Position numbers and translations under genes: made by a program
In this document: in pieces, positions 11,572 through 31,031 of the stretch
Position numbering within the stretch: the first letter of the stretch is position 1
How the letters are laid out: every line of letters begins with the position of its first letter
From: Erysipelotrichaceae bacterium
GTDB taxonomy: Bacteria; Bacillota_I; Bacilli_A; Erysipelotrichales; Erysipelotrichaceae
Assembly (NCBI GenBank): GCA_021209625.1
Contig: JAJOHZ010000033.1
Span: 1 to 43,225 of the forward strand
Reading direction: 5' to 3'
Length of the DNA stretch: 43,225 bases
The notes under the pieces: generated by a model
Seen by the model: the letters and a program-made list of their open reading frames with translations, nothing else
Databases searched by the model: none
Told to the model about the DNA's origin: nothing

Positions 11572-11605
11572 AGAAGCACATACGATTTGATTCGTATGTG
11601 CTTTT
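11572..11605. terminator. Bidirectional terminator between converging genes
   Basis: Strong 11-bp stem AGCACATACGA/TCGTATGTGCT (11575-11585 and 11592-11602) with T tracts on both strands. It serves the FAD gene on the plus strand and the GH94-like gene on the minus strand. Confidence 0.85.
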
Positions 11606-11607
11606 GC

Positions 11608-14600
11608 TTATCTTAGATTATGCTTGTCCACACTCACAAGAATCTTCTCAATGCGTCCATCACGTTTGAATAGACTTTGACTTGTGGCTTCATCAAGGGT
11701 ATGGGTCAATGGATACTCAGCGATGGTTTGATCATGATAGACCACTGTGATGTGTGGTTGTTCAGCCAAGAAATAAATGATGGGGACTGTGCAGAAGGTA
11801 AAGCCTAATGAATCAGGTTCTAATTCAAGGGTGACTTCTTGCTTTGCATGAGGAAGCTTCCAAGTGGTCTTGGCTTGGAGGAATTCACTTCTTTCTAAGA
11901 GAAGTGGATTAAATGACACAAGACCACCATGGACCTTCACACCAAGTTCAGATAGGCGTGAAATAAAATCTTCTTTCACTTGTCCTGTAAGGCCTGGTTG
12001 TTGGACCCCAGAGAATGAAGGGGTATGGGAATAAGCATCGGTAGGGAAAGCTCCATACACAGCAGGTGATTTCTCAAGTCCTAAGCCTGCTTGGGTGGCT
12101 TTATAAGCTTCATGAAGTGCTCGTGTTGATTCACTCGGTCCATGAGCTAATACATCATAATACGTTTCTTGAGTGGCTAGGACCAATTTTGACACCATGT
12201 GCCAATAGATGGATCCTAATCCTTCGTATTTATAGAAGGTTCCTGAACGGCCTGTAAAGGCGTGGTGATTGAATAAGTGTGAGAAGATGTCTTTAACCAC
12301 TTGAATGTCTTCTTCTTTGTATGTGGTAGAAGCTCTTAAGGCTTTCGCAATGTCATTGCCATTACGGAATGAACCATTAAAGTGATAATGTCCATTCACA
12401 TCTTTAAGGATATACTTTGTGCCTCCTTTAGCCAGTTCTTCTTTAAGAATGGATGAGGTCATGACCACATCTTCTGGTACGATGTTTTTATCTAGGAAGC
12501 GTGGTAAGGCACGATTTGGATACAACATGTAACTGTCTTGATCTTCACGATAGATTGCACTGTCTTTTAACGCATGAAGCACATCCAAGCTTTCTTGACC
12601 ACTTAAAGCTTTTGAACTTAAGACAGAGACTTGTCCTTCTAACATCTCATACAAGTGGGATACCTCACAACGAGATCCATTGAACTTAATGAGATTGTAG
12701 GAATGATAAAGATTGTCTTCACGTTTGTTTTTATGAATGGAATCTTTAAGGTGAAGTAAGGTGATGTGAGTGAATGCTTCAATGGCTGCTTTACTGACAC
12801 TGACTTTCTTACCACTGAATCCGTGAGAGTACACTTTATTTCGATACGTTTCTCCCACTTCTCCTAACGCTTTCACCATATCAAAACGTTGTTCATCACT
12901 GATGGTTTGTCCAACTAAGGATTGGTGTTGTTTAAAGATGGTGGTCAGATCATGTAACATCTGTGCGACTTCAATGGATACTTCATATGAATCAAGATCC
13001 ATGTCTTCTAATAAGGAAATCATGAAGACTTGAAAGCGATGGAGGTAATACAAGGTCACCATGGATAAGCCATAGCCCACTAAGGCATTGTTGGCATCGT
13101 TCCATTCAGGACGTTGTGTGTTCATCCAAATGCCCCCCTTCAGGAACGTAGTTCGATAATTTAGCACACACCATCACAAGCAGTTTTTCAATCAGATTAA
13201 CGGTGTAACGCTCATCATTTTTCATAACAAGCTTCCCATCTGATCCAATGGATTTAACACGTTCATGAACGTTTTTATCTAAGGCATAATCATAAAGAAT
13301 ACTGTTGTGAGGATCAGCCATTAAGTCCGCAAACCCTTTAATGCGATAAGGAACATCCGCATACACAAAGACATCTTTATGTAAGAAATCCAAGAGTTTC
13401 TTAGGATGATACGCCTTGGATAACTCCATGAGTTTAAGGAGATAAATGATTTGATGATCTCCCCAGTAGCCAATGTTGGACCAAGGTTCATCTGGATTGA
13501 GTTCTTCCCAATCTAAACCATTTTTTGTAATTCGATAAGGATTATATCCATCCACCGTCGAAGCATTCACAAACTTCGCAATGATGCTTTCAATGTACTC
13601 TGGATATGAGAGAGATAATGCTTCCCAGTTTTGGAAGATGTCTCTCCAGTTGCCCTCAAAGTTCAGTTTCTTACTGCCATCTTCTTTGGCGATTTCAATA
13701 CTGAAACGATTCCAAGGACGACTTGGATCACCATGACGACGGCTAAAAGTAAGCGGTAAGTATTCAAGCACTAAACGCTCTAAGTCTTTGTTGCCTAGTT
13801 CTGTTGCCTTTAACACCAAGTCTTGATACATGAGTTGAGGTGGAAGAGCAGCTAAGACATCTTTAAACTGGGTGTAAATGGGTTTGTTCCACACCTTCAC
13901 AAAGGAAATGAAGTCTTCACTTTCAACATGATACCCATCCGCATACACTCCACCACGCATGATATTAAAGAGGGTGTTGGAGAAATGACGGAAACTGGTT
14001 TTGGTATTGGCTGTGCATTGAAGTCCATCCGCTTCAAACACCAGTTTGGATAAATTATCGCTGCCTTGTTCAATGCTCTTAAGGATGTTTGCTTTTAATT
14101 GTTCTGGTTGAGTGGATAACTCATGAATAAGGTCGTGTACATCTGAAGCGTTTTGACTGAGTTCTGCTACAATCATCCATGTTTGAGTTTCTGAAGGTGT
14201 TAGGGTTAAGGTATCACATACATAATAAGATCCACGTCTTCCCTTCACATCATGCTCAGTGACAATGGTTTCACCTGAAGCGAAGGCCTGAAGTTGTTGT
14301 TCAGAGAGTAGATAAGTTGGGGATGATAAACCCAATGAGAAGACAGTGGTGCATTTTAAGGATTCACTAGGTTCAGCTTTATCGGTAAGAATGGAACTTA
14401 AATTATAGATTCCTAGTCCAACCTCTTCAATGAGTTCACAACGTTTGTATCCATCAAGTAGCGTACTTAATGTGGTTTGAAGTTGAGTGTTGACTCCATA
14501 GGGAAGAATGTTACGTAATCCATCACATACTTTGACAGTCACTGTTTGATCAGACAAGTTAATGATTTGTGATTCTTTAACAAAACCATACTCTGCACTG

Positions 14601-15067
14601 TTCTTATACGTATATCGAAAAGCCACCTTTAAATCATGATTGATTTCCTCAAACATGACTTTATTCCCTAAGGTGTTTTTGTACAGATTACGAGTGATGG
14701 CGTAAACGTTGGAATGGTGCAACGAAAACGGTTTCCATAAAAAACTTTGTTCGTCTCTAGAGACGAGAATGATGGAATTAGATCCGGTAGTTTCTGCACT
14801 GTCATGAATTTTATCATCGGTGTAATATGGAAATAAAGCGTTCTCTGCGTTGACACGACCACAGGTTAATCCCCCTGTGCTTGAGATGAACATCCAGTGA
14901 TCGACATCACTGACAATGGTCATGAAGAAGGGATTCATTTGATTGACATTTTCAATCTTGAAGAAGGTTTCTTGATTGATCTCAACCGTATCTAAATGGG
15001 TTGTTCCTTGATTCAGGTTCAACGGTGTGCTTCCAAAATAAACTTTGGATTTCTGCATTATGGTCAT
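11608..15067 (-). CDS. GH94-like (alpha/alpha)6-barrel glycoside phosphorylase/hydrolase, large, frameshifted at a G6 run
   Basis: A cytoplasmic-looking protein with no signal peptide. It is split into 15067-13106 (653 residues) and 13167-11608 (519). Removing one G from the six-G run at 13133-13138 joins YVPEGG to IWMNTQRPEWNDANNALVG and yields 1152 residues. The N-terminal half looks like a beta-sandwich (VDHWMFISSTGGLTCGR). A barrel follows with NRFSIEIAKEDGSKKLNFEG, DGYNPYRITKNGLDWEELNP, GYWGDHQIIYLLKLMELS and EWNDANNALVG. The last resembles the catalytic G-D-W-N-D motif of GH94 phosphorylases. Substrate unknown. A good promoter and two operator-like palindromes lie upstream. The break falls about ten residues before the putative catalytic Asp, so if real it abolishes activity. 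Confidence 0.6.
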
Positions 15068-15098
15068 TCCTCTCTTGATTAATTAATCCTACACTTTG

Positions 15099-15127
15099 AT
15101 TATATAGTGCCACAATTAAAAGGACAA
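15099..15127 (-). promoter_or_regulatory. Promoter of the GH94-like gene
   Basis: On the minus strand TTGTCC (15122-15127), 17-base spacer, then perfect TATAAT (15099-15104), 32 bases before the ATG. An AGAGAGGAA ribosome site follows. Confidence 0.7.
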
Positions 15128-15140
15128 TGCGGTTTTCGCA
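15128..15140. promoter_or_regulatory. Operator-like inverted repeat abutting the -35 box
   Basis: TGCGGTTTTCGCA is an interrupted palindrome (TGCG-N5-CGCA) directly upstream of the -35 of the GH94-like gene. The position suits an activator or repressor. No regulator is assigned. Confidence 0.35.
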
Positions 15141-15169
15141 ATTAGTTGTCGAGTTATTTGATAGTTTAG

Positions 15170-15183
15170 TGAAAACGTTTTTC
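15170..15183. promoter_or_regulatory. LacI/CcpA-type operator-like palindrome
   Basis: TGAAAACGTTTTTC contains the perfect palindrome AAAACGTTTT (15172-15181) around a central CG, as in LacI-family and catabolite-responsive elements. It deviates from the strict cre consensus at the last two positions. It is the main feature of the otherwise AT-rich 234-base gap 15068-15301, besides the promoter and the other palindrome. Confidence 0.4.
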
Positions 15184-15932: not shown

Positions 15933-17512
15933 TTAATCCTCCTTATTGACGGAAGCAATCACGGGATATAAGAATACCATAGAAATGATGATAATGGCCA
16001 GTGAAGGGATTGCTGCTTCAAACAAGCGTTCATCTCCCGCATAGCGATACACTTGGGTGGCTAAGGTATGATAGTTAAAGGGTCTAAGATTAAGTGTTAA
16101 AGGAAGTTCTTTAATCACATCAATGAACACCAAGGCAAAGGCTGCAAGCAACGAATGATTTAAGTAATGGCACTTCAATTTGAAACAAACCTTGAAGATA
16201 AGTTTTCCCTAATGTTTGAGAAATCTCATTGTTTTTAAGACCAATCTTTTTAAAGCCCCATTCAATGTTTTGATAACCCAAACCTAAATAGCGAATGATG
16301 AGTCCATACATGAGCATTCCAAGTCCTGCCGTCAGCAAGAGATTGAACTGTTGAGATAAGGTAATGAACGCAAAGAGCACTAAAATGGCCATCACACTAC
16401 CAGGAATAGAATACCCCAGTAATGTAATCTTGGATACCACAATGGACCATGGGGTATGTTTTAAGCGGGTATAGTTTCCAATCACAAAACCAATGATCAC
16501 AATCGCACTGGTGACCACCAGTCCTAAAAACATCGTATTAATGAGTTGAGAACCAAAATCATTCCAGTAAATGCGACTAAAAGTAATGAAAGCCCAACTG
16601 GTTAAATGAAAGAGTGGTAGTCCTAAAGCAATGAAAAGAATAAAGATGAAGTAACTAACCAAAGCAACGTGTTTGATGCCTTTGAGTTGTTTACGTTTCA
16701 GTGGGCGAATGTTAGCGGGCATGACTTGCTTGGTGTTTTTGCGTAAAACATGTTCAATGATGAGGATCATAAACACAATGATGAGTAAGAATCCTGCTAA
16801 ACGCAGTGCACTATCAAAATCTCTTAACGCAAACCAGCTTCTAAAGATGGCGATAGAAAAGGTTGGAATATTAAGATAAACCACAGTACCATAATCCCCT
16901 AACACTTCTAAGGCGACAAGCACCATTCCTCCAATGAAGGCATTCATGGCTAAAGGTAAGGCTATCTTAAAGAAAATGCCTGTTGAGCGAAGAACCTAAG
17001 GTTCGTGCTGTTTCCACATAGTTGCCCATGAAACGTTCTAAGAACGATTTGGTTGAAATATACACATAAGGATACAAGGTCATGGAAAACACAATCATGC
17101 CTAAAACCATGGCATTCCATTCAAACCATTCGGGTTTGAATATCCCAAAAGAGCGAAGCGTGGTTTGAAGAAATCCCGTATATCCAATGAAATGAGTTAG
17201 GACATACGCAAAAATATACGGTGGAATGGCTAAAGGAAAATAAAGCAGAAAGCGAATCCACCGTCTAAACTTAAACTCAAAGGTCACCACAAAGTAAGCA
17301 CTTAAAACCCCAAGTACCCCTGTTAGAAGCATTGTGCCTATAACTAAAATAAGGGTGCTTGACGTAATGTTGGGTAAGGTGACTGAAACCACATGTTGCC
17401 ACGTGTCTGAAGCCTTCACAAAGAAACGTGAGAAACTCTCTGAAAGCACAAAAAGGATAGAGACTATCCAAATTGTGCTGAAGATGGTACTAAACGTGGC
17501 GACTTTCTTCAA
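15933..17512 (-). CDS. Fe3+-type ABC transporter permease (FbpB-like), carrying two frameshifts
   Basis: This is a double-length permease with two BPD domains, expected to be about 525 residues with about 12 TM helices. It is now split into three frames: 17512-16967, the frame containing 16947-16120, and the frame ending at 15933. Dropping one base near 16981-16992 joins ETARTLGSS to STGIFFKIALPLAMNAF, restoring the first EAA-type loop. Dropping one T near 16140-16152 joins KSFVA to AAFALVFIDVIKELP, restoring the second loop (FFQIEVPLL-type context, then DVIKELPLTLNLRP). Both repairs rebuild family-typical motifs, so the protein was recently whole, or the sequence holds two errors. It lies between the binding protein and the ATPase genes. 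Confidence 0.8.
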
Positions 17513-19783: not shown

Positions 19784-22127
19784 TTAATTCTCTTTCTTCT
19801 CAATCTTTAAATTCAAACAATACAACACAGTTTCATTAGAAACACGCGCTAACATGTCTTCAAACAACGCAAATCCTTCTTCTACATACGCTTGTAAAGG
19901 ATTGTTTTGCGCATAAGAGCGCAAGTGAATACCTTCTCTTAATTTAGACATGGTATCAATGTGTTCCACCCAAGCACGATCCACAATGCGTAAGACTAAG
20001 GTCTTCTCCACAGGAATAACCACTTCTTTAAATGGTGCAATCTTCGTTTCATAGGACTGCCAAATCATGTCTGTGAGTTTAGCTTCAATCTCAGAAAGAG
20101 GTACATCCAACATGGTCGTTGGATTCAATGAAATGTCACTAAATCCTAATTTTTCAATGGCAGGAAGCAGTCCTTCCCAATCAATCTTCACTTCTTTACC
20201 CGTTGGTGTGGAATAGGAGCGAATCAGATTAAGAATGACACGATCAAACATGTCCTTCACAATGGAATGGACATCTTCATTTTCTAAAATAAAGTTACGC
20301 TGTTCATAAATGATTTCACGTTGTTGACGAAGAACATCATCGTATTCCAATAAGGTTTTACGAACATCAAAGTTCACTCCTTCAACCCGCTTTTGAGCTG
20401 AAGTGATGGAGCGTGTGATCATTTTTGATTCAATAGCCACATCCCCTAAGGTTTTAAAGAGTCCTTCCATGCGCTCAGATCCAAATCGAACCATCAGATC
20501 ATCTTGCACAGAAACAAAGAAACGAGAATATCCAGGGTCACCTTGACGACCGGAACGACCACGCAACTGATTGTCAATTCGACGTGATTCATGACGCTCT
20601 GAGCCTAATACCGCGAGTCCACCTAATTCTTTAACACCAGGTCCTAACTTAATGTCAGTTCCACGACCTGCCATGTTAGTGGCAATGGTGACCGATCCTT
20701 TATGTCCAGCTTTCGCAATAATATCCGCTTCACGCGCATGGTTTTTCGCATTGAGCACTTCATGAGGAATCTTACGTTGAGAGAATATTTTGGATAAGAA
20801 CTCTGAGGTTTCTACCGCAACCGTTCCCACAAGCACAGGTTGCCCTTTTTCATGAAGCTCTTTCACTTCCGCAATGAGGGCTTCAAATTTTGCTTTTTTT
20901 GGTTCCATAGACCGCATCAGGTAAATCTTCACGAGCAATAGGACGATTGGTAGGAATCTCCATAACACGCATATTGTAGATGGACAAGAACTCTTCTTCT
21001 TCGGTTTTCGCAGTCCCTGTCATACCAGAAAGTTTCTTGTAAAGTCTAAAGAAGTTTTGGTATGTGATGGTCGCCATGGTGGATGTTTCTTGTTTGATAG
21101 GGACATTCTCTTTCGCTTCAATCGCTTGGTGAAGTCCATCTGAATACGCACGACCTGGCATTAAACGTCCTGTAAACTGATCAACTATGACGATTTGACG
21201 CTCTTGAACCACATACTCCACATCTTTCGCAAAGATGTAGTTGGCTTTAAGGGCTTGTTGGAGATGGTGAACTAAGTTTGTGTTCTTTAAGTCATATAAA
21301 TTAGCCACTTGAAAGTGTTTCTCAGATTTCGCAACACCTGCTTCAGTGAGTGTCACCACTCTTGATTTGACATCTTTCTCAAAGTCTTCACCTTCAACCA
21401 AGCGCTTCACAAACTTGTCCACTGAGATGTAGATGTTTGCGGTTTGTCTTTGGCCACCTGAGATAATGAGTGGTGTTCTGGATTCATCAATGAGGATGGA
21501 GTCCACTTCATCCACTAAGGCAAAGTTGAGTGCTCTTAAAACACGTTCTTTCACATCCGTGACCATGTTGTCACGCAAGTAATCAAACCCAATTTCCGCA
21601 TTGGTGGTGTAAGTGATGTCTTTTAAGAAAGCCTCACGTTTTTGTGAAGGTGTCATAGCACGAATATTAACTCCCACACTTAAGCCTAAAAATTCATGAA
21701 TTTGACCCATCCATTTGGCATCACGTTGTGCTAAGTATTCGTTGACCGTAATCACATGGACACCTAGTCCTGATAAAGCATTAAGATACACGGGAAGCAC
21801 AGAGGTTAAGGTTTTTCCTTCCCCCGTCTTCATTTCCGCAATGTCCCCATCATGAAGCACAATGCCTCCCATGATTTGGACCAAGTATGGGTATTCTCCA
21901 ATGACACGATACGCCGCTTCACGCGCTGTCGCAAAAGCGTCCACTAAAATATCATCCAAAGATGATGTGATTAAACGTTCTTTAAGTTGAGGTGTCATGG
22001 CTTTGAGTTCATCATCACTCATGCTACGGTATTTAGATGATAATGCATCCACCTCTTTTGCTTTTTTCTCGATTTGATTTAAACGCTTTTTATCAAAATT
22101 AAAAAGCGAACTGATTAGATTGTTCAT
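19784..22127 (-). CDS. secA: Preprotein translocase ATPase SecA, with a one-base frameshift at an A7 run
   Basis: SecA is the essential motor ATPase that drives secretory proteins through SecYEG. The gene reads as two frames: 22127-20883 (414 residues) and one ending at 19784. Removing one A from the seven-A run at 20894-20900 joins DAVYGTKK to [19 protein letters not shown] and gives 780 residues, normal for a SecA without the zinc tail. Walker A is MKTGEGKTL and the DEVD box is [16 protein letters not shown]. Later motifs include [12 protein letters not shown] and [12 protein letters not shown]. The C-terminus ends in KKEN, with no CXCX8CH zinc motif. Loss of secA would be lethal, so a sequence error is the simplest reading. 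Confidence 0.93.
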
Positions 22128-22511: not shown

Positions 22512-23010
22512 TTATCGATTGCTGGTATTTACGTTAACACTTGAAGAGCGTTCCATGTCCAAGACTGCATCAATGGCTAAAACCACCGCAATCACCATGT
22601 CTCTGTCTTGATCATTAAGAATATCCACTTCATAACTGTCCGCAAAGGAGAAAAAGGCCTTTGAGATGTTAGCTAAGACATCCCCTTGTTGATAAATGCT
22701 GTAGTGATGCGCTGTGAAGTTGCCTTCGATTCTTAATCCTAAACTTGGAATGTGATACACAGGTTTAAAAATGAGAATTGCTTTTCAAAGTATGAACTTC
22801 ATCTTTTAATGAAATTTCAAAGGTTGGTAAGAAATTAAACACTTTCTGTTTCACAAATGCCACTTCTTGCATGTCCATGGTGGACACACTGAGTTGTTTA
22901 CCAAAGGAAAATAACTTCCCTTCAACTTGCAAGACATCATTTTGATTTTCATCTTTAATGGTAAAACGATCTTTGAAGCTGAATAGTTTTTGCTTTATGT
23001 ATAGTTTCAT
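22512..23010 (-). CDS. YxjI/LURP-one-related (LOR) family protein, frameshifted at an A/T run
   Basis: A small cytoplasmic beta-barrel protein of the Tubby-like LOR family; the bacterial function is unknown. It is split as 23010-22765 (81 residues) and 22760-22512 (82). Removing one base from the five-A run at 22767-22771 joins SNSHF to KPVYHIPSLGLRIEGNFTAH and gives 165 residues, the usual length. Family features: MKLYIKQKLFSFKDRFTIKDENQNDVLQVEGKLF at the start, AFVKQKVFNFLPTFEI in the middle, and the hydrophobic helix DMVIAVVLAIDAVLDM at the end. A TATAAT (23030-23035) and a GAGG ribosome site precede the gene. Probably an intact gene with a sequence error. Confidence 0.75.
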
Positions 23011-25686: not shown

Positions 25687-26741
25687 GATGCCTCCTTATT
25701 AGAAAAGACTAACTCATCAAGAAGGATATATCCTTCTTGAATGAGGACATCATTTCCCATTTGTTGGCTTAAGATATCAGGATAAAGACACCAGATACAA
25801 TCGCCTCCACCTGCCCCAGAAACTTTAATAATGCCATTGAAAGGTTCAATTAAAGAGGCGATATGTTCCATGGTCTCGGTTTTAATGGTGATCTTTGTGT
25901 TTCGTTGCAACATGTCCAATGCTCGAGACAAGGATTTGGTGTGTTTAATCACATTGCTCATGCAATCTTGATCCATTGCTTTAGACAAAGGATCAATGAT
26001 GTTTTTAGTGGATTCAATAAACAAGGAGTAATAGGATTTGGTTTGGTGTTGCTTCATGGCTTTCACCATGGTTTGGGAATCCGCTGACGCATTGGTAAAC
26101 ACCAAAGACATGGGGAAAGCATGAGGTTTAATTGTTTCTATGGTTAAACTTGGCCAAACATGATGCAGTAACCATTCAATGTCTTTGTGGATGTGTTGAT
26201 ACAACCACGTGTCATCATACTTATGGTAAACAATCCATGTGTTATAAGCACTGACAGCCACATCCCCATAGGATGAATGAGCAAAGTGCTCTAGTTGAGA
26301 AAGCACAGCTAGCTTATAGATTTCTAAAGGTGTGAACTCAAAGCCATAGGCTTGAGTTAAGACTTTGATGACACTCACACAGACTGCTCCACTTGAACCC
26401 AATCCATACTTGGTAGTGGTGTTGTAATCGAGTGAACTTTCAATGTGTAAATGACCCCAAATGCATGGAATGTTTTGTTGCTGAGCATAGCGTTGTACCA
26501 TGTTTATCGCATCTTGGATCAACTGATTGGAAGGAATGGAGACTAACCCTAAGTGTTGAATGCATTCATAGCCTTTACTTTGTTGAGAAGAGGTAATACG
26601 CCATTTTTCTTCTAGAGTAAATGACGTGGTGACCCCCACTTGAGTGTTAAAGATGATGGCACTACTTTGGCCACTGACCACCGCATACTCACCCCCGAAG
26701 TACACTTTACCAGGGGCAAAAGCGGAGTATTTATTGTTCAT
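25683..26741 (-). CDS. mvaK2: Phosphomevalonate kinase
   Basis: This GHMP kinase converts mevalonate 5-phosphate to the diphosphate. The 352-residue protein begins SAFAPGKVYFGGEYAVVSG and has the ATP-binding motif KYGLGSSGAVCVSVIKVL. A late glycine-rich loop KVSGAGGGDCIWCL supports phosphomevalonate kinase over the other GHMP kinases. Its start overlaps the 3' end of mvaD by 11 bases (26731-26741), and it ends in ATGA with fni. All four operon genes overlap, consistent with one transcript from upstream of mvaK1. Confidence 0.95.
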   Translation of the reverse strand: MNNKYSAFAPGKVYFGGEYAVVSGQSSAIIFNTQVGVTTSFTLEEKWRITSSQQSKGYECIQHLGLVSIPSNQLIQDAINMVQRYAQQQNIPCIWGHLHIESSLDYNTTTKYGLGSSGAVCVSVIKVLTQAYGFEFTPLEIYKLAVLSQLEHFAHSSYGDVAVSAYNTWIVYHKYDDTWLYQHIHKDIEWLLHHVWPSLTIETIKPHAFPMSLVFTNASADSQTMVKAMKQHQTKSYYSLFIESTKNIIDPLSKAMDQDCMSNVIKHTKSLSRALDMLQRNTKITIKTETMEHIASLIEPFNGIIKVSGAGGGDCIWCLYPDILSQQMGNDVLIQEGYILLDELVFSNKEAS

Positions 26742-27683
26742 AGAGGATGTGTGCTCCTTTCGCTGGATGAGTCACCACAATGTCCTTGACTTTGTGTTGG
26801 TCCAAAACATTTAAAACTTGATTTAATGAGGCTTGATTGGTTAAGACCTTAACATGCATTCCAGCATCCATGGTAGGATAAGCAAATTCACCTTGTTTTT
26901 GCAAATCCATGATCGCATGAATGAGGTCCATGGATTGAGGTGTTAAGTATAAGGTTGGCGGGATGGTGGCTAGCATGCTTGCATGCATGGCTAAGGCTGA
27001 TGATTGGGTGAGTTCCCCAATGCTTTGAAGATCTTCAATATGATGGCATGTTTCATGGCTACTAAATCTTGCGTTGTTTTAGAAACCCATGTTTGATAAT
27101 ACGGTGAAGATTTCACTGTATTCTTCATGGCTTGTTTAGAGGAAATGGATTTCTTTTGATGGGTTAACAGGGCAAACACCATGATAAGATCAAATCCATC
27201 TTCACGGATGGTGTACACTTCCCCACTCTTTTCCCACACCACAAGTCCTGAGAACAAACTACGACAAGCACTGCCACTGCCCAAACGAGTGATGTTGGCT
27301 AAAACTTGATCACTGAAGTTTCTTTCAAAGAACACATTAGCTGCTTTGGCTAAAGCTGCAAATCCACTGGCACTGGACGCGACCCCACTGGCTGTAGGTC
27401 CTGTGTTTTCAGAGACAATGGATATGTTTTCTAACTCATGATCTTCCGCAAAGTGTTTTAAAAAGGTTTTAATCTTTAACGCATCTTCTTTAGTAGCACG
27501 CTTTCCATTGAGTGAAAAGGTGAAACCATGTCGAGTTTGAGTGATGGTGGTCTTGGTGTATAATTCACTGACACTTAATGAGAGTGAACCTGTATAGGGT
27601 ATCACTTTTTCTTCATCTTCTTTTCCCCAATATTTAATCAGGGCAATGTTGACTGGTGCAATGGCGGTTACGGTTGTTTTCAT
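26731..27683 (-). CDS. mvaD: Diphosphomevalonate decarboxylase, with a one-base frameshift
   Basis: The enzyme makes isopentenyl diphosphate from mevalonate diphosphate with ATP and loss of CO2. It is split into 27683-26991 (230 residues) and a downstream frame that ends at 26731. Adding one base near 27035-27045 joins VAMKHAI to IEDLQSIGELTQSSALAMHASMLATIPP, the conserved family stretch, and gives 317 residues. Key motifs: NIALIKYWGKEDEE at the start, TGPTASGVASSASGFAALAKA, RLGSGSACRSLFSG, and YPTMDAGMHVKVL near the end. Loss would break the only visible IPP route, so a sequence error is likely. It overlaps mvaK1 by ATGA (27680-27683). Confidence 0.92.
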
Positions 27684-28582
27684 TGTAAGTTAATACTCCA
27701 TACATAAGGGGTTTCTTGTTTTAATGCGTCTACAATACTTAAGACATGTTGATCTTCAGCTAAGGCTATCATACACCCTCCTAAGCCACCACCGGTTAGT
27801 TTTGCACCTAAGGCATGATGATAACGAGCAATGTCAACATAGTGATCCAAGGTAGGTGTACTGATGTTGAGTGCCTTTAAAATATCATGCGCTTGATTCA
27901 TGAGAGAACCAAGGGTCTTAATGTCTTGGTGTTGAATACATGTTTGAGCTTGTTTAGTGAGTGAACCTAATGTTTCAATTAGATGAATTCCATTTGAATG
28001 GACATACTCTGCGACGAGTTCAACAGCTTCTTTGGTTGATCCTGCTTGTGGGCTTTGTGCAATGATCAGTGTCGCAGGTAATGAAATGGTTAATGGTTGA
28101 GGTGGGGTTCCTTTAGTATAGACCCAAGCATAATCAAAGGAGGTGGTGAGGGCATCAATGCCTGAAGGATTGCCATGGGCAATGGTTTCAGCTTGTTGGA
28201 CCCAGTTAAAGAGAGTGTGATCATCCAATGAGGTCTGAGTGTAATCATAAAAGGCTTTGGTCATGGCAGAAGCCAATGCAGCACTGCTGCCTAAACCCGC
28301 AGAGAATGGAATTGACGATTGAATAGTAAGTTCAAGTGGACTAAGGTTAAAGTGGGCTTGTAGAGTGTTAAACAAGTGAATGATTGGATATAAAAGTCTA
28401 GGTGCATCCTTAAGTTCTCCTGTATAGAGATCACTCTTCATTGTGTTATGTGATGAAGGAAGGATCGTGACTTGACAAGTGAGTGCTTTAAAAGGGAGTG
28501 CGATGGCGAGTTGATGATACACCACACTGTGCTCACCCATAAAAATGACTTTCGCATGTGAAATGCCAATGCCTTGTTTCAT
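27680..28582 (-). CDS. mvaK1: Mevalonate kinase
   Basis: This GHMP-family kinase phosphorylates mevalonate at O5. The 300-residue protein has KVIFMGEHSVVYHQLAIALP at the N-terminus, the ATP loop IPFSAGLGSSAALASAMTKAF, GNPSGIDALTTSF with the catalytic Asp, and GAKLTGGGLGGCMIAL near the C-terminus. It is the first gene of the operon mvaK1-mvaD-mvaK2-fni. Promoter elements TTGATA and TATAAT lie upstream with an 18-base spacer, together with an inverted repeat that straddles the -10. AAGGAA is the ribosome site. Confidence 0.95.
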   Translation of the reverse strand: MKQGIGISHAKVIFMGEHSVVYHQLAIALPFKALTCQVTILPSSHNTMKSDLYTGELKDAPRLLYPIIHLFNTLQAHFNLSPLELTIQSSIPFSAGLGSSAALASAMTKAFYDYTQTSLDDHTLFNWVQQAETIAHGNPSGIDALTTSFDYAWVYTKGTPPQPLTISLPATLIIAQSPQAGSTKEAVELVAEYVHSNGIHLIETLGSLTKQAQTCIQHQDIKTLGSLMNQAHDILKALNISTPTLDHYVDIARYHHALGAKLTGGGLGGCMIALAEDQHVLSIVDALKQETPYVWSINLQ

Positions 28583-29728: not shown

Positions 29729-29935
29729 ACTGAAAGTCATGTTTCAATCTTTGAGGAATGATAAAATGCATAAAATGAATGATAACTGACATTTATCCTC
29801 TGTTTTAGTGGTTATTTTGTAGGGTGTGTTGTAGTTTAGGGAAGGATTGGATATGATGATTCTAGTATGATATTTAGTTATTACCAAATAGAACTTGAAA
29901 CCTATTAAATCATTATATACGGGGGATTGATAACA
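29729..29935. other. Non-coding gap upstream of the HNH gene
   Basis: About 200 AT-rich bases with no convincing ORF. A GGGGGA ribosome site (29921-29926) precedes the HNH gene. TATGAT-like -10 candidates are present but without a matching -35. Confidence 0.4.
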
Positions 29936-31031
29936 ATGATAGAATTACCAAAATCAGAAGGATTAAACACTGTAGCATTTTCAATGATGTTTTCTTCAAT
30001 GACAAATTCATACAAGTTGCTATGGTTCAAAGCGATTTTTGATCACGTTCTTGAAGGAAAAACAGAGATTGCTGTCGATATATTGGTTCAATCGATGGTG
30101 ATAGAAGCATTTCCATTCATTCACAAGTACAAACTTGGATTCAGTGTACAGGATCAAATTGAGTCTACCTTAAGAACTATTCCCAATGCGTACCGAGGCA
30201 ATGGTGATTTCACCTCATTGTCAACGGTAATCAATCAGAAACAGCTTAAGAAACTTCATAAAGAGATCACCAATTATGTACCATATCGATTACTCACACC
30301 GTTCTAACAAAAACGTTAAATCAAAAAATGATGCCACAAGAAATAAAGACATTTCCAGGGCAATGTTGAGTGATGCTAACTCATTTTACTATTTCAACAA
30401 ATCTAATAATACTGTTCTAGTATCAGAAAAATGGATACAATACATTTTAACGAATCAAAACTTAATCCTGGGATGGTATAAGTATCATCTCATTAAATTT
30501 CTTCAAAAGCGTAATCCATCCACACCCAACATACCTGCAAAGATTGATGCTGTACGTGAAAATATTAATGATCAAAGAGCATTTTGGAAAAGAATAGCTC
30601 AGTTTGAACCGCGCATTGACTTTGATATCTATCAGAATATTTCATTTTCTACCCACTCACAAGAACAGTTAGGTTCATTTAGTTTAGATCATATTTTACC
30701 TTTCGATTTTGTTTCGCACGATTTGATATGGAACTTAGTGCCAACACATAAAAATATTAATAGTCAAAAAGGGACTAAATTACCTTCTCTTCAACTGATT
30801 GAGCGAGCTGTTGATACGCAATACTTATTCTTTAAAACCGCAAGAAAAGTTGATAAACTTTCAAAAAAAGAAATAAGCATGCTGCAAGAATACAAATACT
30901 TAAATCAAAAACTTGATTATTTGGATGAGTCAATCAATGAAGAGACATTCAAATATATCCTAAAAGAACAGCTCCAATCATTATATTCAATCGCATATAA
31001 TCAAGGATTTGAACCTTGGAGAAGTGAATAA
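29936..31031 (+). CDS. HNH endonuclease domain protein, frameshifted near 30300
   Basis: A predicted nuclease of about 364 residues, split into 29936-30307 and a second frame ending at 31031. The N-terminal part (SYKLLWFKAIFDHVLEGKTEIAVDILVQSMV) is helical. Skipping one base at about 30300-30308 joins NYVPYRLLTPF to NKNVKSKND, the point where homologues read V-P-Y-R-F-L-x-P-F. The C-terminal HNH core is FSLDHILPFDFVSHDLIWNLVPTHKNINSQKGTKLP, with His, Asn and Asn ligands in family positions, so the nuclease site is intact. The gene is visibly more AT-rich than its neighbours and has no operon partner, as expected for an acquired accessory gene. A defence role is possible but unproven. Confidence 0.7.

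Follow-up and report, generated by a model that had tools for sequence, protein, structure and literature searches.

The GH149 locus and its product

We analysed a stretch of 43,225 nucleotides (hereafter the window), which is contig JAJOHZ010000033.1 of the assembly GCA_021209625.1 from an Erysipelotrichaceae bacterium. We focused on a minus-strand gene for a predicted beta-1,3-glucan phosphorylase of the GH149 family, and on the operator-like sites upstream of it and inside it. In the record, the gene is divided between two overlapping open reading frames (ORFs), at 13106-15067 (653 aa, piece 1) and 11608-13167 (519 aa, piece 2), which meet at a run of six G (G6; Table 1).

The NCBIfam model NF058639 (GH149 1,3-beta-D-glucan phosphorylase equivalog) was matched at positions 5-627 by piece 1 (967 bits) and at positions 624-1133 by piece 2 (671 bits), the two jointly spanning the model from end to end. 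Either piece by itself scores below the model cut-off of 1150 bits; the intact GH149 proteins of the genus mates G003 and G004 scored 1660 and 1680. The only solved structure matching both pieces was Pro_7066 (PDB 6HQ6/6HQ8), with E values of 4e-205 for piece 1 and 1e-141 for piece 2. GH149 is characterised by two extra domains in an (alpha/alpha)6 barrel; the alignment of both pieces to 6HQ6 showed small gaps only.

An earlier reading, made from the DNA letters alone (the sequence-only reading), had described a GH94-like protein of more than usual length. The protein is indeed a glycoside phosphorylase of the GH94 clan, but its family is GH149, and its length, which exceeds that of GH94 enzymes, matches what is usual in GH149 (1175 residues in the 6HQ6 chain). 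The profile comparison with GH94 and related families, which that reading had proposed, gave no GH94 domain: with Pfam searched up to E 1, piece 1 matched no family and piece 2 matched BRCA2 only (E 0.14, chance level). GH161 was rejected as well, since only residues 58-230 of piece 1 matched (34 bits) and piece 2 had no match. In the structure search, one named cellobiose phosphorylase matched weakly, at the N terminus only.

The active-site residues, whose roles in Pro_7066 are named in the structure paper (PMC6771811), were all retained in the window protein, namely the WND and RD motifs, the Glu and the His. The blocks DGYNPYRITKNG and EWNDANNALVG, singled out in the sequence-only reading, were also present in the translated protein. 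Piece 1 alone, as translated in the record, is without the catalytic Asp. The start codon is likely the ATG at 15058 rather than 15067, judging by a ribosome-binding site seen by eye and by the sister proteins. The N terminus, MQKSKVYFGST, had no hydrophobic stretch by eye. These features point to a GH149 beta-1,3-glucan (laminari-oligosaccharide) phosphorylase, presumably cytoplasmic, that would release glucose 1-phosphate.

Among the best 80 of 589 public loci, the closest were records named Erysipelotrichaceae, with 61-64% identity over the C-terminal piece. The search of viral contigs found no relative. In our family sample, GH149 was found in 17 of 195 genomes and in 4 of 59 genera.

Table 1 Features of the GH149 locus and broken genes nearby, with positions in the window.
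Feature	Position	Strand	Basis
Bidirectional terminator-like hairpin 3' of the gene	11572..11605	.	Consensus match only
GH149 C-terminal piece with catalytic WND, other frame	11608..13132	-	NF058639, 6HQ6
YEGLGSIYWHM block with counterparts of Pro_7066 E951 and H959	12196..12228	-	Alignment; PMC6771811
WND motif, predicted catalytic Asp (= D653 of Pro_7066)	13096..13104	-	6HQ6 alignment; roles from PMC6771811
G6 run at the frame break (C6 on + strand)	13133..13138	-	Frames and genus-mate comparison
GH149 N-terminal piece with RD motif	13139..15058	-	NF058639, 6HQ6; start codon by sister proteins
RD motif (= R470, D471 of Pro_7066; sugar 1-phosphate recognition)	13640..13645	-	Alignment; PMC6771811
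Intragenic operator-like site, GAAACCGTTTTC on the gene strand, codons Trp-Lys-Pro-Phe-Ser	14724..14735	.	Conservation, codon constraint
Sigma-70-type promoter TTGTCC-N17-TATAAT	15099..15127	-	Pattern; genus alignment
Other palindrome, TGCGGTTTTCGCA, probably chance	15128..15140	.	Not conserved
Upstream operator, GAAAAACGTTTTC on the gene strand	15171..15183	.	Conserved; four genus mates have GAAAACGTTTTC
ABC permease, two frame breaks	15936-17512		Open in G004
secA, frame break	19787-22127		Open in G004
hpf-like gene, frame break	22521-23010		Open in G004
Mevalonate-pathway-like gene, frame break	26734-27701		Open in G004

Promoter and upstream operator

The promoter proposed in the sequence-only reading is present, and TTG-N17-TATAAT was found at the same place in all five genus genomes. 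Over the 17 genomes with GH149, such a promoter was seen in 14, the exceptions being G076, G124 and G162. Of the two operator-like palindromes also proposed there, the one at 15170-15183 is conserved as a putative operator. The other one was rejected, having short arms and no conservation in the five-genome alignment.

Operators of the type GAAAnCGnTTTC lay upstream of GH149 in 16 of the 17 family genomes, with letters varying between the genera; the window copy is one base off, and carries one extra A relative to the closest sister, G005. The distance from the operator start to the -35 box was 53-55 bp in 12 of the 14 promoter-bearing genomes and 75 bp in the other two. The window taken alone gave no excess over chance (3 palindrome matches with two mismatches allowed, 2.74 expected), and a scan of it with the consensus of catabolite-response elements (cre) did not pick up the upstream operator.

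At other promoters with the same operator type, i.e., those of GH16 (G000, G003) and of the first (G000, G001) and second (G003) binding-protein genes, the operator follows, overlaps or abuts the core promoter. For the LacI gene and the GH16-GH3 pair, the pattern search found no promoter. The GH149 operator is clear of its promoter, so a repressor bound there would need another handle.

An operator-like site inside the coding sequence

Such a handle may lie inside the gene. The 12-mer GAAACCGTTTTC was identical in 14 of the 17 genomes, from three genera, and absent from the fourth genus, g35. The spacing between upstream and internal site was 430-474 bp. Three public loci (L008, L009, L013) also had both sites, with no further match in 13-17 kb, and L020 had the upstream site only; the first three are possibly the same species as some of the sampled genomes and were left out of the counts.

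Codon use at the site is constrained. Among 315 conserved columns, the constraint was strongest at TCG, which makes up 8% of the Ser codons and was used there in 16 of the 17 genomes; CCG, used in 14, ranked fourth. Identity at four-fold sites was 25-36% in the three pairs of genomes compared between genera. Within the genus, over the first 640 codons and outside the site, TCG accounts for 0.9% of Ser and CCG for 6% of Pro codons, and both are used at the site in 5/5 genes. Synonymous shuffling yielded the 12-mer with a probability of 0.013-0.094 per gene having it, and the product over eight representatives was 1.7e-12 if these are independent. In addition, G003 has Val in place of Trp at the site and has nevertheless kept the operator's first G, and in G000, G003:C53 and G005 the same 12-mer, on the other strand, is the site that immediately precedes LacI.

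Some of the evidence does not favour an internal operator. All eight shuffle representatives came from site-bearing genomes, and related genomes were treated as independent. Checked by eye, the spacings of the two operators showed no constant helical phase. Three genomes (G030, G081 and G039) have the upstream site without the internal one; G081 and G039 still have TCG, and the codon constraint may thus be due in part to something else. The lack of the site in three genomes and the retention of TCG in two of them would suit an alternative in which the 12-mer is no operator, its codons being kept for translation speed, mRNA structure or some other signal, and only the upstream site regulates; so would the chance, given above, that the peptide Trp-Lys-Pro-Phe-Ser spells the 12-mer by itself. 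We consider this unlikely, because it leaves aside that the conserved codons spell the regulon operator found independently upstream, that the 12-mer recurs before LacI, and that the first G outlived the Trp codon in G003.

Operator-like sites (GAAAGCGGTTTC twice, GAAACCGATTTC) were also observed in the public loci L014, L016 and L018, all 271 nt before the Trp codon. They apparently fall within the first GH149 codons and may represent a further type of intragenic operator in Bacilli.

A probable LacI-linked regulon

In six genomes of the genus, exact GAAAACGTTTTC occurred 14 times and its reversed control twice. For 13 of these sites, the target gene was recognised through a family search or an alignment with G003. 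Exact sites lay before GH149 in G001, G003, G004 and G005 (the G000 site is one base off and outside the 14), between divergent GH16 and GH3 genes in G000:C42, G003:C30 and G004:C30, and before two binding-protein genes, with two sites each in G000:C12, G003:C30 and G001:C195. The remaining site, G003:C53:3546, lies behind a GH16 at the end of a contig. Pfam annotated GH3, GH16, GH30, GH5, binding-protein and LacI genes, and a 556-aa product was, by sequence, a distant solute-binding protein (E 6e-7).

A one-mismatch operator, GAAAACGATTTC on the gene strand, preceded the LacI-adjacent GH16 in all five loci (G000, G001, G003:C30, G003:C53 and G005). A LacI sharing 60% identity or more with the G003 protein was found in 13 of the 17 GH149 genomes and in none of 11 chosen genomes lacking GH149, where the best match was 41% identical. 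The genus member G002 (83% complete) had no GH149, no exact palindrome and no match to the regulon LacI at 1e-60. Where both were found in the window's genus, all in draft genomes, GH149 sat on contigs other than the LacI/GH16/binding-protein cluster. On this comparative evidence, the palindromes appear to mark a LacI-linked GH16/GH3/binding-protein regulon that includes GH149 in the genus.

The following results count against this reading. With one mismatch allowed, the palindrome gave 51 and the reversed control 66 forward matches in the six genomes (11 and 10 in G000), so only exact matches separate the two. An operator before LacI itself, GAAAACGGTTTC on the gene strand with one mismatch, was present in three of the five genus loci (G000, G003:C53, G005) and not seen in G003:C30 or G001:C195. 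Four of the 17 GH149 genomes were without a full LacI match; three of them are 68-79% complete, and the fourth, G004 (90% complete), had a 116-aa LacI-type piece. The LacI matched the LacI model PRK09526 only to position 336 of 358. It therefore probably lacks a tetramerising tail, in which case looping would depend on contacts between dimers.

Alternatively, the palindromes could be cre sites, bound by CcpA and not by the linked LacI. Those of G004 and G001 agree with the cre consensus TGNAANCGNWNNCW quoted in PMC5483248, which also calls the sites of GlyR3 and CcpA alike. This explanation is quite improbable in view of the co-occurrence of GH149 with the linked LacI, and of the position of 13 of the 14 exact sites at beta-glucan genes, with none placed elsewhere. 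Furthermore, G002 has one LacI-family gene, other than that of the regulon, but no exact palindrome, and the GH16 and binding-protein promoters bear separate cre-like boxes such as TGTAAGCGCTTT. Boxes of this kind (TGTAAGCGCTTT, TGTAAACGCTTT) stood beside the LacI operators at the regulon promoters of the loci L099, L102 and L106, and suggest catabolite control on top of the putative LacI control.

Further observations were made on the regulon loci. In the LacI gene on contig C12 of the window genome (L099, 7159-8154), a short part of the helix-turn-helix is out of frame and contains a stop, whereas the gene is open in G003. G003:C53 (L103) is a second LacI/GH16 locus, a paralogue or contamination, whose LacI is 82% identical to the first and scores like that of G005. 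Concerning the GH3 genes at L101:3337-6072 and L104:8998-11733, the regulon GH3 of G003 (911 aa) has its C-terminal GH3 domain before the N-terminal one (residues 24-278 and 481-770), and the GH3 protein of G004 aligns to it over the whole length. L102:498-3401 encodes a 967-aa solute-binding protein whose Pfam binding domain covers only 554-839, leaving a long unannotated N-terminal part. The stretch around a one-mismatch site in G004:C23 matched none of six regulon proteins. Next to GH149 in G004 (L088 5582-9836, from G004:C17) there were genes for Cas9 (1090 aa) and Cas1, which are not at that place in the window.

Frame break in the record

The break at G6 is real in the record. The sequence-only reading had left it as an error, a knock-out or a phase-variable switch, and the evidence favours the first: we are confident, short of certain, that it is an error of this record. 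The genus mates covering the site (G003, G004 and G005) had an open frame with no G run longer than three. PEWND stood in frame with the preceding peptide in 79 of 80 public loci (the best 80 of 589), L070 being without the exact string, and no other homologue read across the site was broken there.

Frame breaks were frequent in the window genome. With open frames as queries, 33 genes could be compared with counterparts that are open in sister genomes, and 9 of the 33 were broken in the window genome. Five of these are among the 16 genes compared in the window, with contig 17 of G004 as guide, i.e., GH149, an ABC permease, secA, and two genes that we named hpf-like and mevalonate-pathway-like by presumption, from position and length. 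The other four are among 17 genes of the C12 and C42 stretches, one being a 126-aa ORF that is possibly no gene. In the reverse test, none of 36 open frames of the window genome, fragments of broken genes included, was broken in the G003 and G004 sister contigs, and sister against sister gave 0/8 and 0/13. The many breaks in this record, secA included, against none in the compared sister contigs, favour the error. Over the stretch seen, secA was unbroken in all five genus mates (785 open codons in three, 747 and 722 in the others); in the window it is broken at an A7, near 20894-20900. Homopolymers do not explain every break, the permease break near 16990 having no run of four. At 29927-31031 of the window, two ORFs in different frames overlap, one of 251 aa with an HNH_4 domain and one of 126 aa; they are perhaps another broken gene.

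The ratio of nonsynonymous to synonymous substitution rates (omega) relative to G005 was 0.09 for piece 1 and 0.115 for about 230 codons of piece 2. Both halves of GH149 are under purifying selection. This argues against a true loss-of-function mutation of the strain, an explanation that we find improbable even though the LacI, GH16, GH3 and one binding-protein gene of the regulon are also broken in the window genome. Genes outside the regulon share that fate in the same window, including secA, which is essential, and the helix-turn-helix of the LacI leaves the frame briefly and then returns, as paired indel errors would make it do.

A phase-variable switch would fit with a homopolymer directly preceding the catalytic block, as seen in the record. 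We regard such a switch as highly improbable: the three genus mates covering the site have no G run above three, the public locus L019 carries an in-frame G6 there with an open frame, and secA is broken likewise at its A7. Six bases are also short for slippage switching.

Two results sit less well with an error of the record. The rpoB gene is intact in the window genome, so the indel load is not uniform, and in the sister contig G001:C29 rpoB is split over two frames, so such breaks are not peculiar to the window record. In G001 (L106) the GH16 match also ends at residue 155 of 237. No match to alaS was found in the window genome (60% complete). Genes of this record may look broken through indels, which calls for caution in reading it.

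Proposed regulation of GH149

We judge it reasonably probable, from the comparisons above, that GH149 is a detached member of a laminarin-type regulon with GH16, GH3 and binding proteins of sugar ABC transporters, controlled by LacI from two operators through looping or a roadblock, and that the break is an error. Whether the two operators form a LacI-family device at GH149 conserved over three genera, with the upstream site at an almost constant distance from the promoter and the internal site written in rare synonymous codons, a Bacillota counterpart of the lac and gal loops, is in our view evenly balanced.

In the proposed mechanism, the LacI-family repressor whose gene neighbours a GH16 gene on a different contig would control GH149 through GAAAnCGnTTTC-type operators. 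When no inducer is present, it would occupy both sites, which are separated by about 450 bp: the upstream operator, about 54 bp ahead of the -35 box, and the site within the coding sequence. The gene would be silenced by a promoter-spanning loop, by a block to RNA polymerase at the internal site, or by both, and released by an inducer, probably a beta-1,3-gluco-oligosaccharide. Because the upstream operator lies above the promoter, looping or a roadblock at the internal site would be the likeliest mechanism, and the apparent lack of a tetramerising tail would speak for a roadblock or dimer-dimer looping. Roadblocking by LacI has been reported (PMC4132739). The genes of the regulon suggest that the control is sugar-responsive, and indicate how these Bacillota may use laminarin-type glucans. 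Among the open-licence papers mentioning both GH149 and Erysipelotrichaceae, one names GH149 a single time, as an item in a list of laminarinases.

Comparison with known systems

The closest characterised enzyme is Pro_7066 (6HQ6, 6HQ8; PMC6771811, PMC5827456), which resembles the window protein in sequence over both pieces and in the WND, RD, Glu and His residues. Pro_7066 groups with Bacteroidetes, whereas the window protein is a Bacillota-type relative, whose gene stands apart from its cluster and is frame-broken in the record. The GH149 type I clusters of Proteobacteria, with a LacI or AraC regulator (PMC5827456), share the linkage of GH149 to LacI and an ABC transporter. GH149 of the window's genus, unlike these, is off-cluster and tied to the regulon by operators.

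With respect to the regulator, GlyR3 of Clostridium thermocellum, which is released by laminaribiose at celC, is likewise of the LacI family, with a CcpA-like operator and a site within a coding region, manB (PMC5483248). That site belongs to another gene, is weaker and shows no laminaribiose response (PMC5483248). The internal site described here, in contrast, has an upstream partner at its own gene and is kept in three genera. No description of an intragenic LacI-type operator in a GH149 gene was found in the open-licence papers searched. The two sites together bring to mind the DNA loops of the lac and gal operons.

In lac, too, a distal operator lies inside the first gene, lacZ. Here, by contrast, one operator is upstream of the promoter and the regulator is apparently without a tetramerising tail. 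The loops between the E. coli lac operators O1, O2 and O3, of 401 and 493 bp, are close in length to the 430-474 bp found here, and imply that such spacings can loop (PMC4725879). The GH149 kind of enzyme and its occurrence with LacI in one cluster in Proteobacteria were known (PMC5827456); what appears to be new is the same type of operator inside the coding sequence. The predicted internal operator would be a case of overlapping codes, with a protein and a repressor site written in one sequence.

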